Assembly: GCA_030669585.1 (NCBI GenBank)
Contig: DAOVDI010000008.1
Coordinates: forward strand, 1 to 47,750
Reading direction: 5' to 3'
DNA: 47,750 nucleotides
Source of the DNA: Acidobacteriota bacterium
Lineage (GTDB): Bacteria > Acidobacteriota > Aminicenantia > Aminicenantales > Aminicenantaceae
The notes under the pieces are model-generated. The model saw only the letters and a list, made by a program, of their open reading frames with translations. It did not search any database and was not told the origin of the DNA. The first letter of the stretch is position 1. Every line of letters starts with the position of its first letter. Position numbers and translations under genes: made by a program. Shown piece after piece: positions 33,262 to 39,785 of this stretch.

Positions 33262-35274
33262 TTAAATTGCTTTGTCAACTACTTGGGCTATATCCTCAAC
33301 CTTAATCGTTTCTCTTTCTTTATCCTTTAATCCGTCCTGAAGCATTGTCTGGCAGAAGGGACATGATGTAGCGATTATTTCTGCGCCGCTTTTTATCACT
33401 TCATCCGTCCGTTTGTGATTGATACGGGTTCCAAGGTTTTCTTCGGTCCACATCAAACCTCCTCCAGCTCCGCAGCAGAAACTGTGTTCCTTATTATTGT
33501 CCAGTTCTATGATTTTTTTGCCGGTCAGTTTTAATAAAATATCTCTGGGTTCTTTGATGATACTGTTATGTCTTCCCAAATAGCATGAATCATGATAGGT
33601 CAATTCTTTGATAATCCTGTCTTTAAGTGTTAAGGCGCCGGTTTCAAGCAGGTGCTGTATAAACTGGACATGATGAAAAACTTCAATATTTTGCAGGGAA
33701 ACTTTATCCTCATCCGACAGCTTTGGAAGCAAGTCTAAAAGTTTTGGATATTCGTTTTTAAAAGTGTTATAGCCGTGTGGGCAGGTGACGATTATCTTTT
33801 TAACATTGTATTTCTTAAAGGTCTCGATATTGTCTCCGGCAAGTATTTGGAAAAGGTATTCATTTCCAAGCCTTTTGGCAGAGTCACCGCAGCACTTTTC
33901 TTCTGTTCCAAGAATACCGAACTTGATACCGGCTTTGTTGAGAATTGAGACCATGGCTTTTGTGATCTTCTGTCCTTGTTCGTCAAAGGCGCCGGCGCAT
34001 CCGATCCATAGAAGATATTCCGTGTCCGGTACATCGGTGAGCATTTTTACATCCAGTCCTTCAGCCCAGTTGGCGCGGTCGGCAAAACCAATGCCCCATG
34101 GATTGCTGTTTGTTTCCATATTCCTGAAAAACGCGTTTAATTCTTTGGGGAATTTACTTTCCATCAACACCTGACTCTGACGCATACTTACAATTTTCGA
34201 CACATGTTCGATCTCTACAGGACATACATGCATACAGGCGCCGCATGTAGTACAGGTCCAGATCTCATCCTCGGTGAATACGCCGTCCATTAGGTTATTC
34301 AGATTGTCCCTGTCTTTTTTAATTATCGCTTTTTTATTTTCCAGAAGATGGTGTTTGAGGTTAAAGATGATCATCTTTGGAGACAATGGCTTTTCAGTTG
34401 AAAAGGCCGGACATACATCCTGGCAGCGTCCGCATTCCATACAGGCAAATTCGTCCAGGAGATCTTTCCAGGTGAAGTCAAACGCTTTTTCTGCTCCAAA
34501 AACCTCGATGTTCTCCAGGTCAAGAGAGCACAATTCACCATGGGGCCTTTCATTCCTGACTAAAACATTAAATGACCCTGCAAACATGTGAAAATATTTA
34601 GAGTGTGGAACATACGAGATAAATCCCAAAACGATCAGGATGTGCAGCCACCAGGCCACATAAAAATGAGTATGAACAGCAGAGGCGGTCATTCCTGACA
34701 CATTCAATATATTCCCAAAAAAGACTCCCAGAAAAGACAAACGTTCTGTTCCGGGATTGAAGGCGATTGAGAATATCTCAAAGTACAGATAGCTTAATGT
34801 GACAACCGTAATTAGAAAATAGATAATAAAGGAATCCATGGGGGTGGTCTGATAGGCCTTTGGCCGGATAATGAATCTTCTGATTGCAAAAAACGCTATT
34901 CCGGTCAGCACCAGTATAGCCATCACATCCACAACAAGTGAAAAAAACAGGCTGAAGCCCCCGTGTCCGAACAGATGAAAACGAGGGAAAAACCCCTCTA
35001 ATATATGGTTGACCGACATAGTATCAAATGTCAAAGCGCTGTAAAAAATAAACACATGCATCAGGCCGGTGAAAGCCCTTTCGTTTTTCAGGGTACATCT
35101 TTGCAGAAGGATTTTAGACAGAGAATTCCATATTCTTCTGAAAGGATTGTTGAACCTTTTATTAGGAAGTCCTGCTATCACTATTCGAATGCGATAGTAA
35201 ACAGGAACTGCAAAGGCAGTAAAGGTTAATAGAAGCACCAGCCCAAAAACGATTTTACCTGTGAAAGAAAGCAT
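33262..35274 (-). CDS. membrane Fe-S oxidoreductase, ETF:menaquinone oxidoreductase type
   Basis: This 670-residue protein probably takes electrons from ETF and passes them to quinone. The first 240 residues are a nitrate-reductase-gamma-like membrane domain of about five helices, with His pairs suitable for haem b (for example H73, H201/H203, H211). A double 4Fe-4S ferredoxin domain follows: CMECGRCQDVCP (C278-C288) and CTTCGACMHVCP (C341-C351). Two Cys-rich CCG domains of the HdrD type have C426 with CCG at 461, and C564 with CCG at 600. The fusion matches the DUF224/EMO proteins of beta-oxidising anaerobes. A perfect AGGAGG precedes the start. It lies 11 bp after the receptor gene. Other HdrD-related roles remain possible. 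Confidence 0.85.
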   Translation of the reverse strand: MLSFTGKIVFGLVLLLTFTAFAVPVYYRIRIVIAGLPNKRFNNPFRRIWNSLSKILLQRCTLKNERAFTGLMHVFIFYSALTFDTMSVNHILEGFFPRFHLFGHGGFSLFFSLVVDVMAILVLTGIAFFAIRRFIIRPKAYQTTPMDSFIIYFLITVVTLSYLYFEIFSIAFNPGTERLSFLGVFFGNILNVSGMTASAVHTHFYVAWWLHILIVLGFISYVPHSKYFHMFAGSFNVLVRNERPHGELCSLDLENIEVFGAEKAFDFTWKDLLDEFACMECGRCQDVCPAFSTEKPLSPKMIIFNLKHHLLENKKAIIKKDRDNLNNLMDGVFTEDEIWTCTTCGACMHVCPVEIEHVSKIVSMRQSQVLMESKFPKELNAFFRNMETNSNPWGIGFADRANWAEGLDVKMLTDVPDTEYLLWIGCAGAFDEQGQKITKAMVSILNKAGIKFGILGTEEKCCGDSAKRLGNEYLFQILAGDNIETFKKYNVKKIIVTCPHGYNTFKNEYPKLLDLLPKLSDEDKVSLQNIEVFHHVQFIQHLLETGALTLKDRIIKELTYHDSCYLGRHNSIIKEPRDILLKLTGKKIIELDNNKEHSFCCGAGGGLMWTEENLGTRINHKRTDEVIKSGAEIIATSCPFCQTMLQDGLKDKERETIKVEDIAQVVDKAI

Positions 35275-35285
35275 TTGTCCTCCTA

Positions 35286-38069
35286 TTAAAAATCATAAGC
35301 TAAACCTAAACGAAATACTCTAGGAGACTGGATCTCTGTTGCGTAACGCAATGGATATATTGGACCTGTCCACTCATTTTCTTCTGTTGCAAGGCCCCGG
35401 TTCAGGATGTTGAAAGCATCCAGAATAATGCGGAATTTTTTTTCTCCGAAACGGAAGGTTTTTTCCAGGCGGACCTCAATGGTTCTGTTATATTCATACC
35501 TGGATACGCCGCGCGGATGAGCCTGTATATAAAAAGGTCCTTGATTCATGCCGGTTACAATGATCTTGCGGGCGAACGGCTGTCCGTCGTAATACTTGAT
35601 GACACAAGCAAGCCGGAATCCAAGAGGCATTAGATAGTTTATACCGATCCTGCCCGTATACGCACGGTCAAATCGCACCCTGCCGCGGGCATTGATAAGG
35701 GTGTTGGGATTGTCATAGAGAGTTCCTATAACACCGTCATCGTTCTCCCATTCGGTGTTGCCCGGATTGGTCGTTCCTTCGGCTTCGGTGGCAGTCAAGG
35801 ACAGAAAGAATGTAAATGTTTTTCCAAACTTTTTGACAATTGTCATATCTGCTCCGTAGTATTTTGTGAGCCTTTTTTCTCCCACTTCGTTGGTAAGAAG
35901 AAAAAAGTCCTGCCCAAGGGTTTCCGGGTTCTGGTTATAGACAACAAAATTCAGGTCATCGTGTGTATTGAACACCCTGTCGTCCCCAATATCGAATATC
36001 TTCTCCGGAGAATAAGAGGATAAAGGGACACCTGGGTTTAGGGGTTCTAGAAGGTTTCGAGTCTCGCGGATAAATCCGCTCAGAGTGAATATCCAGCCCG
36101 GGCCAAAAGATTTCAAGTATGAAATCGATAATTCATCCGTACAAGGCCTCTTGAGTTCAGGGTCGATATCCGAATAAAAAGCGCCTTCTCTTCGAAGGAA
36201 GGTTGATTTTTCGCCTGGCTGGAATTGGCCGTCCTGATTGGCATCGTTCCAATTATAGACCAATCCTCCCAGGGCATCAGGGTGGCCATATGTCAGATAG
36301 GAAAGAGGCAGGGTATAATAATATCTTGAAAGAGAGATCTTGAGAGCTGAAGACTTGTCTCTGGACAGGGGAATTGTCATACCGAAGCGGGGAGAGATAT
36401 TGAGCCATGTGATTTTTGCTCCCTCATCCTGTATTGTTGATCCGGGTATCCAGCCTCTGCTGTAAGCCAGTTGAGCCCCGAAATGTACGGAAAATAAATT
36501 GCAAAGGGTAATGGTATCCTGAAAGATTCCACTCAAGTGGAATGCTGATTCCCGGTGAAGGACCGGAGTATTGAAGAAGACGATTTCCAGAGGATAATTA
36601 TTGAAAAAACGAAGATGAAGATTTTCAAATATGTCCGTATCCGAGGTTGACGAGCTCAATTTAGCTTGCACTCCATACTGCAGGCGATGTTGTGCTTTCC
36701 CGATGTTTTTTATAAAGGAATCGCCCTGGAAGAGGAATGTGAGCAGGTCTCGGGACTCATGGTTGATAAAAGGGGTTGAGCCTGACGGGATCTTTCGGAA
36801 AATCTCGTATCCGTGCTGCATCCTGTCGTTTTCCTGAGGGTCGAAGTCCAGTTTCCCGTGAGCATAACTCAGACCGATCTTAAAGGCATGGTTCTCATTG
36901 GCTCGTGTTTGCCAGATCGCCTGAAGGACATTAAAATAGTCTTTGCGGATAGAGGTGGTTGAAAAGGGGATGTTACGGTCTGCGCCGTAAGAGTTATTGG
37001 ATCGGATCTGTCCGGTCCACAAAAGCTTAAATGAACTTGAATCGGCTTGATAGTCCAGGCTGAATAATCCTGAAATAAGGGATGATTTATCATCTTCTTC
37101 AAACTCAGCGATGTTTCTGGATGTATCGTTGGCAGAAATAGAAGAAAAATAATAGAGTTTATTTTGGACAAGAGGTCCTGAGATGTGAAGATTTCCATTG
37201 ATCATTGAGTTGAAAGAGTGGTTTTCCAATATCCCTTCTTGCTGCAGGGCAGGAGAAATATTGCTGCTCTGCAGATGGGAGTCTATGAAATAAACTTCCA
37301 GGCCGCCTGAGTAATCATCATTTCCATTGCGGGTGATGAGGTTAAAAGCCCCTCCGGGTGAGAGAACCTGGACCGGATGGGACGCATTAGTAAGTTGAGT
37401 AAATTTCAGGGAAAAGAAATCCGGATGAAATAAAGGAATTCCAGTTTGATAGGGGTCGCCCACATCCATCCCATTCAGATAATATTCGGTCTGAGTCCAG
37501 GACACGCCACCTCTAGAGCTGAAGAGCCCCGGTATATTTCCCCAGAGTCCGCCTACGTCAATGCGGTTAGTTGTTGCGGACAAATCCTGATTCTCCACGA
37601 GGTGCCAGATATTGTGGGCGGAAGGCATCTGATAGATGTTGGATTCATTTAGCACGGTTTGATGTGTGTTACTCGCATAATCCAGGTGTTGAAGCATTGA
37701 GTAAGACATAATGTCTTTTGTGCCGGGGATGAGAGTGATATCCACATAAAGCGATTGTCCTGGTTCAATGAAGATTTCCTCTTGGTAGAGAGGGTGGTAT
37801 CCTTCACATTCGATGTGAAGAGAATAGAGGCCCGGGGAAACTCCAATAAGGAAAAAGATGCCTTCTTGATCGCTCAAACCTGTTTGATAGTTGTCCTGTT
37901 TGTCTTTTATCAGCAAAATATGTGCGCCATGAATAGGGTTATTAGTGTCACTGACCACGCGTCCCCATAGCAAAGCGCTGTCAAATGCAAAGCTTGAGGA
38001 ATACAGAGAAATAATGAGAAAAAAAACAGTACAAAATAGTGTGGATATTCTTTTTAATTGAAAAATCAG
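35286..38069 (-). CDS. TonB-dependent-receptor-like outer-membrane protein with CarboxypepD_reg domain
   Basis: The product has 927 residues if initiated at CTG 38069. Signal peptide about 1-29 (LKRISTLF, hydrophobic core, SSSFA). Next comes a carboxypeptidase-regulatory-like beta domain (LLWGRVVSDTNNPIHGAHILL to about residue 115), then a plug region with RGGVSWTQTEYYLNGMDVGDP and PGGAFNLITRNGNDD. A long beta-barrel ends in LGLAYDF. No clear TonB box was seen. Start choice: the frame runs up to TTG 38144, but that TTG is the TTGACA box of the promoter and ATG 38126 lies before the -10. Downstream, the only well-placed site is AGGAGAG (38081-38075), 5 bp before CTG 38067-38069. It resembles the large Oar-type receptors of Acidobacteria-like organisms. 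The substrate is unknown; a Fur-like site suggests iron. Confidence 0.88.
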   Translation of the reverse strand: MIFQLKRISTLFCTVFFLIISLYSSSFAFDSALLWGRVVSDTNNPIHGAHILLIKDKQDNYQTGLSDQEGIFFLIGVSPGLYSLHIECEGYHPLYQEEIFIEPGQSLYVDITLIPGTKDIMSYSMLQHLDYASNTHQTVLNESNIYQMPSAHNIWHLVENQDLSATTNRIDVGGLWGNIPGLFSSRGGVSWTQTEYYLNGMDVGDPYQTGIPLFHPDFFSLKFTQLTNASHPVQVLSPGGAFNLITRNGNDDYSGGLEVYFIDSHLQSSNISPALQQEGILENHSFNSMINGNLHISGPLVQNKLYYFSSISANDTSRNIAEFEEDDKSSLISGLFSLDYQADSSSFKLLWTGQIRSNNSYGADRNIPFSTTSIRKDYFNVLQAIWQTRANENHAFKIGLSYAHGKLDFDPQENDRMQHGYEIFRKIPSGSTPFINHESRDLLTFLFQGDSFIKNIGKAQHRLQYGVQAKLSSSTSDTDIFENLHLRFFNNYPLEIVFFNTPVLHRESAFHLSGIFQDTITLCNLFSVHFGAQLAYSRGWIPGSTIQDEGAKITWLNISPRFGMTIPLSRDKSSALKISLSRYYYTLPLSYLTYGHPDALGGLVYNWNDANQDGQFQPGEKSTFLRREGAFYSDIDPELKRPCTDELSISYLKSFGPGWIFTLSGFIRETRNLLEPLNPGVPLSSYSPEKIFDIGDDRVFNTHDDLNFVVYNQNPETLGQDFFLLTNEVGEKRLTKYYGADMTIVKKFGKTFTFFLSLTATEAEGTTNPGNTEWENDDGVIGTLYDNPNTLINARGRVRFDRAYTGRIGINYLMPLGFRLACVIKYYDGQPFARKIIVTGMNQGPFYIQAHPRGVSRYEYNRTIEVRLEKTFRFGEKKFRIILDAFNILNRGLATEENEWTGPIYPLRYATEIQSPRVFRLGLAYDF

Positions 38070-38099
38070 CGAAACTCTCCTACCTTGAATGATACAGGT

Positions 38100-38119
38100 T
38101 AAATAATTCTCATTATTTA
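38100..38119 (-). promoter_or_regulatory. Fur-box-like perfect palindrome
   Basis: TAAATAAT, GAGA, ATTATTTA on the sense strand: a perfect 8-4-8 inverted repeat. The 19-mer at 38117-38099 agrees with the E. coli Fur consensus at 13 of 19 positions. It covers the region from the -10 box to about +10 of the receptor promoter, where a repressor would block transcription. Confidence 0.5.
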
Positions 38120-38144
38120 TCACCATTTTGGGATTCGCTGTCAA
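38116..38144 (-). promoter_or_regulatory. sigma-70-like promoter of the TonB-receptor-like gene
   Basis: On the minus strand, a perfect TTGACA (38144-38139), a 17-bp spacer and GATAAA (38121-38116). The predicted transcription start is near 38109. Confidence 0.55.
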
Positions 38145-38159
38145 GTCTGAATTATTTAT

Positions 38160-38315
38160 AAAAAAGGTGAAAGGTGAAAGTAAGAAGGCTAAAAGTTAAA
38201 AGCAACTTAGCCCAAAGTCATTTAATTTACGTCATTCCCGTTCCCCGATCGGAGTCGGGGACAGGGTTCACGGGAATCCAGATAAACGGGATGAACGAGA
38301 GTAGCGAGGAACCCT
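38160..38315. repeat. composite intergenic repeat, copy C (no decamer array)
   Basis: A GGTGAAAGG spacer, leader CAACTTAGCCCAAAGTCATT, extended dRS3-like hairpin (38231-38281) and tail GATGAACGAGAGTAGCGAGG. The lpdA promoter begins directly after it. Confidence 0.75.
38231..38281. repeat. extended dRS3-like hairpin with 32-bp insert
   Basis: ATTCCC (38234-38239) and GGGAAT (38272-38277) enclose 32 bp instead of 8. The insert holds CCCCGA, TCGGAG, TCGGGG, itself a hairpin. Confidence 0.8.
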
Positions 38316-38345
38316 TTGCATCAATTGATCGGGACGGGATATAAT
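38316..38345 (+). promoter_or_regulatory. sigma-70-like promoter of lpdA
   Basis: TTGCAT (38316-38321), an 18-bp spacer and a perfect TATAAT (38340-38345). The TTG reads in frame with lpdA but is better read as the -35 box. Confidence 0.55.
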
Positions 38346-38387
38346 ACATCAAAACTGAAAAAATCTTCGGCAAAGAAGGAATACAAG

Positions 38388-39785
38388 ATGAAATATGATC
38401 TAATAGTCATTGGTGGCGGCCCGGGAGGATACGTAGCTGCCATCAGAAGTGCACAGCTAGGGAAACAAGCAGTTGTTGTTGAGGAAGATACCTTAGGTGG
38501 TGTCTGTATGAACAGAGGGTGCATTCCAACAAAATATTTACTAAATCAGACTAAGAAATATAAGGATATTAAAGACAACAAAAATTTCACCGGGCCTGTA
38601 GATCAGATCGGATATGATTGGGACCAAGTTTTGGCTGGCAAACAAAAGATCGTTGCACGTTTAATCAAAGGAACTGAATTTCTTCTTCAGAACAATGGTG
38701 TAAAAGTGATTCAGGGGAAAGCCTTACTTTTGCCGGATCATAAAATCCAGGTGATTCAGGAAGACAAAAAACTTTTACTCGAGGCGGAAAACATCATTTT
38801 GGCTACAGGCAGTCGTCCGGCTGAACTCCAATTCTTGAAAATAAATGGAAAGGATATCTTGTCCAGCCGGGATGCCCTGGAACTTAAAAAAATCCCGGAA
38901 TCCATGGTCATTATAGGAGCCGGGGCCACAGGCCTGGAGATGGGTGTAATTTTCCAGCGAATGGGCACAGATGTGATCGTACTGGAATTGATGGCGGGAA
39001 TTCTTCCGGGATGTGATGTGGAAATGGTGACAAGGCTGGAAAGGCTGCTCAAGCGTCAGGGCATGAAGATCCATACCATGATGAGTGTCGAAAAACTCGA
39101 TAGGGTTAAAGGATCGGTGCGGCTCACAGGCCGGTCTTTAAAAGATAATAAGCCATTTGAGTTTAAATCGGAAAAGGTCCTGTCGGCTGTTGGTAGAAAG
39201 CCCAATTCCGAAGTGTTTCAAAACGTGGATGACAGGATAAGATTCGACCAAAATGGCTTTATCCAGGTCAATGCCCGGCTTGAAACCGGTCTTCCCGGCG
39301 TATATGCTATTGGGGATGTGATCGGAGGAAGATTACTGGCCCATAAGGCCTCCAATGAGGGGATAATTGCTGCGGAAAATGCAGCTGGTTTAGACCATGA
39401 TATGCGTTATCATGCTCTTCCCTCCGCTGTTTTTACCGACCCTGAATTTGCTTCTGTTGGGATGACTCAGGAAGAGGCGGAGGATAGCGGATTGGATGTT
39501 CGAATAGGCAAGTTTTCGCTTCAGGCGAATGGAAGGGCCTTAACTATTGGCAAGCCGGACGGGATGGTGAAGATCATTGCCGACAAAAAAGGCAAAGTTG
39601 TTGGTGCTCATATCCTGGCGCCGGATGCTGGTGATCTGATCACGGAGATGACCTTAGCAGTAGAAAAAGGATTGACTGTGGACAGCCTGTCTTCATGCAT
39701 ACACATTCATCCGACATTGTCAGAAGCTGTCATGGAAGCATGCCTAAATGCAGACAATCGGGCAATACACATGATGAATAAATAG
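38388..39785 (+). CDS. lpdA: dihydrolipoyl dehydrogenase
   Basis: This is an FAD flavoenzyme (E3) that reoxidises dihydrolipoamide of 2-oxoacid dehydrogenase or glycine-cleavage complexes with NAD+. The product has 465 residues. FAD motif VIGGGPGGYVAAIRSAQLG at 7-25, redox disulfide GGVCMNRGCIPTK (C40/C45), NAD motif VIIGAGATGLEMG, GLPGVYAIGDV, and the C-terminal HIHPTLSEAV His-Glu pair. The ATG at 38388 has AAGAAGGA 7 bp upstream and its own promoter at 38316. No E1/E2 or gcv genes are adjacent, so its partner complex is unknown. Confidence 0.95.
   Translation: MKYDLIVIGGGPGGYVAAIRSAQLGKQAVVVEEDTLGGVCMNRGCIPTKYLLNQTKKYKDIKDNKNFTGPVDQIGYDWDQVLAGKQKIVARLIKGTEFLLQNNGVKVIQGKALLLPDHKIQVIQEDKKLLLEAENIILATGSRPAELQFLKINGKDILSSRDALELKKIPESMVIIGAGATGLEMGVIFQRMGTDVIVLELMAGILPGCDVEMVTRLERLLKRQGMKIHTMMSVEKLDRVKGSVRLTGRSLKDNKPFEFKSEKVLSAVGRKPNSEVFQNVDDRIRFDQNGFIQVNARLETGLPGVYAIGDVIGGRLLAHKASNEGIIAAENAAGLDHDMRYHALPSAVFTDPEFASVGMTQEEAEDSGLDVRIGKFSLQANGRALTIGKPDGMVKIIADKKGKVVGAHILAPDAGDLITEMTLAVEKGLTVDSLSSCIHIHPTLSEAVMEACLNADNRAIHMMNK

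Follow-up and report, generated by a model that had tools for sequence, protein, structure and literature searches.

The window, a stretch of 47,750 nucleotides, is one contig of a 191-contig genome (G000 below). Its minus strand carries at positions 35286–38069 a receptor gene of 927 codons, counted from a CTG to the stop, whose product has an N-terminal CarboxypepD_reg domain and a predicted outer-membrane beta-barrel. A gene for a membrane Fe-S oxidoreductase, HdrD/GlpC-like with CCG domains (33262–35274, minus strand; Pfam/NCBIfam assignments, ATG start), begins 11 nt past the receptor stop, and a dihydrolipoamide dehydrogenase-like gene (38388–39785, plus strand; PF07992/PF02852) is transcribed divergently. 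Among the fetched loci, the oxidoreductase gene lies near the receptor in 20 genomes, with an ATG start in 19 of 19 readable cases, and the dihydrolipoamide dehydrogenase-like gene in 21, with 17 ATG and 1 TTG among 18 readable starts. The order seen at 33262–39785 (lpd-like gene, divergent receptor, HdrD/GlpC-like Fe-S oxidoreductase) recurs across Aminicenantes, and this conservation of gene order suggests that the receptor and the redox genes are functionally linked. The region between the divergent genes (38145–38387) also holds an imperfect ATTCCCG...CGGGAAT repeat-like element, which was missed by the inverted-repeat tool.

The receptor matches PF13620 (CarboxypepD_reg) at its N-terminus with an E-value of 1.8e-13, and none of the Pfam models for plug or barrel scores at E 0.1 or better. 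An AlphaFold2 model built from a 15-row alignment (pLDDT 66.6, pTM 0.72) is a beta-barrel, which Foldseek matches best to TonB-dependent receptors and to transporters of the SusC type (4zgv, E 7.7e-23). Matches to 22-strand barrel/plug transporters have a TMt of about 0.4–0.6, the plug region of the model (125–245) being of low confidence. We read the product as an outer-membrane protein of Candidatus Aminicenantes that resembles TonB-dependent transporters. It shares the N-terminal domain and the predicted barrel fold with the TonB-dependent receptors carrying CarboxypepD_reg (Oar/SusC-like), but differs from them in lacking a Pfam plug or barrel match at the threshold given. A sequence search of the PDB returned a single weak match, to an SdrD entry, and no relative was found among viral contigs. 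Relatives in named records belong to Candidatus Aminicenantes in 16 of 17 loci. One record titled Clostridiales bacterium (L044, G045) carries an Aminicenantia-type receptor, is placed with this order by the genome search and is probably mislabelled. Two receptor paralogues in G000 start with ATG, and the receptor of G093 (L050/L064) is found in two frames, owing to a frameshift or an assembly error.

Translated from CTG 38067–38069 (minus strand), the gene begins with a signal peptide, LIFQLKRISTLFCTVFFLIISLYSSSFA (37986–38069; first residue presumably fMet, cleavage site placed by eye). A Shine-Dalgarno (SD) sequence, AGGAGAG, occupies 38075–38081, 5 nt before the CTG. At this site, the 7-mer TAGGAGA pairs with the anti-SD at -7.3 kcal/mol and is followed by the in-frame CTG after 6 nt and by the adjoining ATT (38066–38064) after 9 nt. 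From 38121 to codon 32 past the CTG, the frame has no ATG, GTG or TTG. The canonical codons in frame are upstream: TTG 38144, the first of them, belongs to a -35 box TTGACA (38139–38144), while ATG 38126–38124 and GTG 38123–38121 fall in the spacer and at the edge of a probable -10 box, GATAAA (38116–38121). Separated by a 17-nt spacer, these boxes form the best-scoring pair and would place the transcription start near 38109. The sequence-only reading had described this arrangement with correct coordinates throughout. Its view of the upstream start codons as promoter bases holds, as ATG, GTG and TTG occur only within TTGACA-N17-GATAAA, and we confirmed both the AGGAGAG 5 bp before the CTG and the good signal peptide read from it. 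An 81-nt stretch of the leader folds no better than shuffled sequences (z 0.51). Around the -10 box and transcription start, the sequence ATAAATAATGAGAATTATTTAA (38098–38120) resembles a Fur-type palindrome by eye; none was seen in the leaders of relatives.

The class is represented by 142 genomes, of which 48 have the receptor, and 43 N-termini could be read, 42 together and that of G044 by eye; the other five (G014, G019, G028, G029 and G058) were unread because their matches begin far inside the protein. Starts were called by eye from the SD and the position, with the hydrophobic core of G040 set by hand. The 42 orthologues comprise 18 CTG, 17 ATG, 3 TTG and 3 GTG starts and one ambiguous case (G016); G044 has an ATG start with TTGACA upstream. 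The CTG thus occupies the same place after an SD in 18 of 43 readable orthologues (G000, G008, G032, G004, G012, G017, G001, G030, G020, G007, G026, G015, G011, G045, G039, G050, G049 and G037), the others carrying ATG, GTG or TTG. Its presence in 17 other assemblies excludes the sequencing error that the sequence-only reading had named as a way to be wrong. In 10 of the 18 CTG genes, no ATG, GTG or TTG lies between the preceding in-frame stop (the contig edge in G049) and the hydrophobic core of the signal peptide. In G032, G004, G012 and G017 the CTG immediately follows an in-frame stop codon, and in G012, G017 and G007 the first ATG, GTG or TTG comes only at codon 34–37, beyond the signal peptide. 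The remaining 8 of 18 are weaker cases: G000, G001 and G037 have another canonical codon upstream, and G032, G004, G030, G011 and G045 have one a short way downstream, within a few codons. Within one genus the start codon is swapped in place, as seen in G039, GAAGAACTGAGAAAA, and G053, GAAGAGTTGAGAAAA. The signal-peptide alignment is loose, its best column being NTG in 24 of 38 sequences.

As 25 of 43 orthologues do without a CTG start, the codon is not essential. In a tree with 42 rows, of which 41 carried a label (G016 left out), CTG versus other requires 8 changes; shuffling the labels 300 times gave a mean of 13.6 and a minimum of 9. Within the window's family, the divergence covered by the 13 CTG rows amounts to 6.9 substitutions per site (0.96 between G000 and G008). 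This pattern fits long inheritance with several switches; on this tree, with its 14 open forks, CTG may be either ancestral or derived.

Several controls bear on the specificity of the CTG start. The strongest SD 7-mer reaches -6.5 kcal/mol or below in 23 of 42 orthologues; an in-frame CTG follows it by 4–11 nt in 12 of these 23, compared with 0 of 23 for each of the other two frames. Over the wider region, five orthologues (G008, G026, G039, G045 and G050) have an SD-like 7-mer stronger than the one preceding the CTG. Leucine codon choice does not explain the CTG: in the receptor orthologues it accounts for 26% of Leu codons and for 2.7% of codons overall. Neither is CTG a general start codon in these genomes: among 304 ORFs sampled from G012 and 187 from G000, no convincing CTG start besides the receptor was found, and SD enrichment was present for ATG and absent for CTG. 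The other SD-associated CTG matches have the look of internal codons or stand beside a canonical start, except for one in G012 whose sequence reads N and which was left unjudged. An unusual initiator tRNA was rejected, a normal initiator-tRNA arm being found in 33 of 37 genomes. The exact pattern for the 16S 3′ end was matched in only 2 of 37 genomes, the window's own not among them, so a standard anti-SD was assumed. Coupled translation through an upstream ORF overlapping CTGA was also discarded, since that frame has no start codon in 10 of 16 CTGA genes and offers no consistent candidate in the other 6. Taken with the orthologue comparison, translation of the receptor very probably starts at the CTG.

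We compared the strength of the SD with the nature of the start codon. A mechanical rule blind to the SD, which takes whichever NTG comes first downstream of the predicted transcription start, agrees with the calls by eye in 32 of 42 orthologues, differs in codon or position in 9 (among them G001, TTG for CTG) and makes no call in G045. By this rule, 16 CTG genes have a median SD of -7.8 kcal/mol and 13 ATG genes one of 0.2 kcal/mol (p 3.7e-6, the sequences being related). Unambiguous ATG genes elsewhere have medians of -3.7 (G000, n 26) and -6.15 (G012, n 38), and strong SDs are common in general (38–47% of unambiguous ATG genes). A phylogenetic pair test yielded 4 supported independent pairs only, of which on average 1.8 agree and 0.0 disagree with a trade-off; the sign test (median p 0.5) has no power at this number. 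Given this lack of power and the relatedness of the sequences, the pairing of CTG with a strong SD and of ATG with a weak one is only suggestive of a conserved low initiation rate. It is in line with the proposal of the sequence-only reading that the CTG limits expression, and it is reasonable to infer that the codon limits or regulates receptor synthesis.

The infC gene, encoding IF3, served as positive control for the reading of non-canonical starts. An ATT or ATC start directly after GGAGG was read in 25 of 30 infC loci (L091–L120), 5 being unread, so that discrimination of start codons by IF3 probably operates in Aminicenantes; this extends the unusual infC start to the class. In E. coli, infC has an AUU start, limited expression and IF3 autocontrol, as the titles of works cited by PMC9845219 indicate. 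In E. coli and other bacteria this gene keeps a non-canonical AUU or AUC behind a strong SD, as the receptor keeps its CUG. In contrast to infC, the receptor uses CUG, has no link to translation and no apparent autoregulation, and its codon switches with ATG, GTG and TTG.

Few bacterial start codons are known to be as weak as CTG. PMC11497404 puts its output at 0.86% of that of AUG and its share at 0.024% of bacterial start codons. In PMC9845219, 20 annotated CUG ORFs are counted in 69 genomes (0.024%), and GUS activity from CUG is given as absent in E. coli. Sporadic bacterial CUG starts use the same codon as the receptor and presumably the same initiator tRNA; they are rare annotations, whereas the receptor CUG persists in different genera and families within one class. 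A search on CUG and other non-AUG bacterial starts and on start codons in Aminicenantes, in a paper library with few subscription journals and preprints, did not find the case reported. CUG starts are known as a kind; what is new is this unusually well retained instance.

Our preferred reading, to which we give a probability of about 0.88, is that the receptor is translated from CUG 38069–38067, behind AGGAGAG and a short leader from the TTGACA promoter; the combination of codon and SD would set a low initiation rate. Sequence comparison supports the position, the SD, the promoter, the lack of any other usable start in many orthologues and the persistence of CTG over deep divergence, whereas the low rate is an inference. 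The promoter would yield a leader of about 40 nt, on which the strong SD would direct the ribosome to the CUG, to be read by the normal initiator tRNA. A start codon this poor (in E. coli about 1% as efficient as AUG) joined to a strong SD would make initiation infrequent and probably sensitive to IF3, and so keep the output of a large outer-membrane protein small. Where a lineage has ATG, a weak SD seems to achieve much the same.

The alternative that survives best, a possibility we consider real although the less probable one, also has the CTG in use but as a neutral relic: any NTG would work, the SD would suffice and the codon would drift with no effect on dosage. The repeated switching among CTG, TTG, GTG and ATG fits such drift, as do the strong SDs of nearly all CTG genes and the canonical codons close by in G032, G004, G030, G011 and G045. 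Long retention in 18 genomes is, however, unexpected under drift, given the inefficiency of the codon in E. coli (PMC11497404) and the rarity of ancestral AUG to CUG switches, put at 2 of 61,358 starts in PMC5622118. In addition, CTG is never found at the start of either neighbouring gene.

A start further upstream, at TTG 38144 or at ATG 38126/GTG 38123, would add a 20–25-residue N-terminal extension to the signal peptide and require a promoter further upstream; we regard this as very improbable. The frame is indeed open to 38195, G037, G053 and G044 are likewise open through their own promoters, and a weak promoter-like pair lies at 38178–38151. The promoter scan lists that pair, which is no more than chance would give (1 found against 1.4 expected), and leaves out TTGACA/GATAAA because its -10 box lacks the final T. 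No SD precedes the upstream codons (2.3 and -0.5), and the TTG belongs to a promoter box that is itself conserved: 38 of 42 orthologues have TTGAC[AT] no more than 100 nt before the start (a mean of 1.64 in shuffles), and GATAAA or CATAAA is also present in G002, G001, G003, G031 and G021 with a 17-nt spacer and in G011 with one of 18 nt. Conservation of homologues upstream of the signal peptide, which the sequence-only reading had named as a refutation, is absent. An in-frame stop lies within 12 codons of the CTG in 15 of 18 CTG genes, G049 reaches its contig edge, and the frame is open for more than 40 codons only in G000 and G037, so that the open frame through the window's promoter is probably fortuitous. 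Initiation at ATT 38066–38064, once offered as a second option, or at another near-cognate codon is the least credible choice: the ATT is also near the SD and infC uses ATT/ATC in Aminicenantes genomes, but among the other CTG orthologues ATT follows the CTG only in G032 and G004 (elsewhere AAA, AGA, AAT, AGC, AAC, AAG, TTT or TTG), and orthologues without CTG carry ATG, GTG or TTG.

Beyond the start at CUG 38069–38067, a more speculative proposal, which we think rather unlikely, is that the CUG is a regulatory device: it would tie receptor synthesis to initiation stringency (the IF3-to-ribosome ratio, growth state), separately from the AUG-initiated redox neighbour, with selection holding the product of codon and SD strength constant. 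Gene callers limited to ATG, GTG and TTG would give such receptors a wrong start or truncate them, with loss of the signal peptide. A codon that is nearly non-functional where measured and yet kept across genera offers a natural test of selection on initiation strength, and because CTG goes with strong SDs and ATG with weak ones, the idea that a low initiation rate is being tuned can be tested directly. The conserved odd start suggests that production of this receptor is held low.
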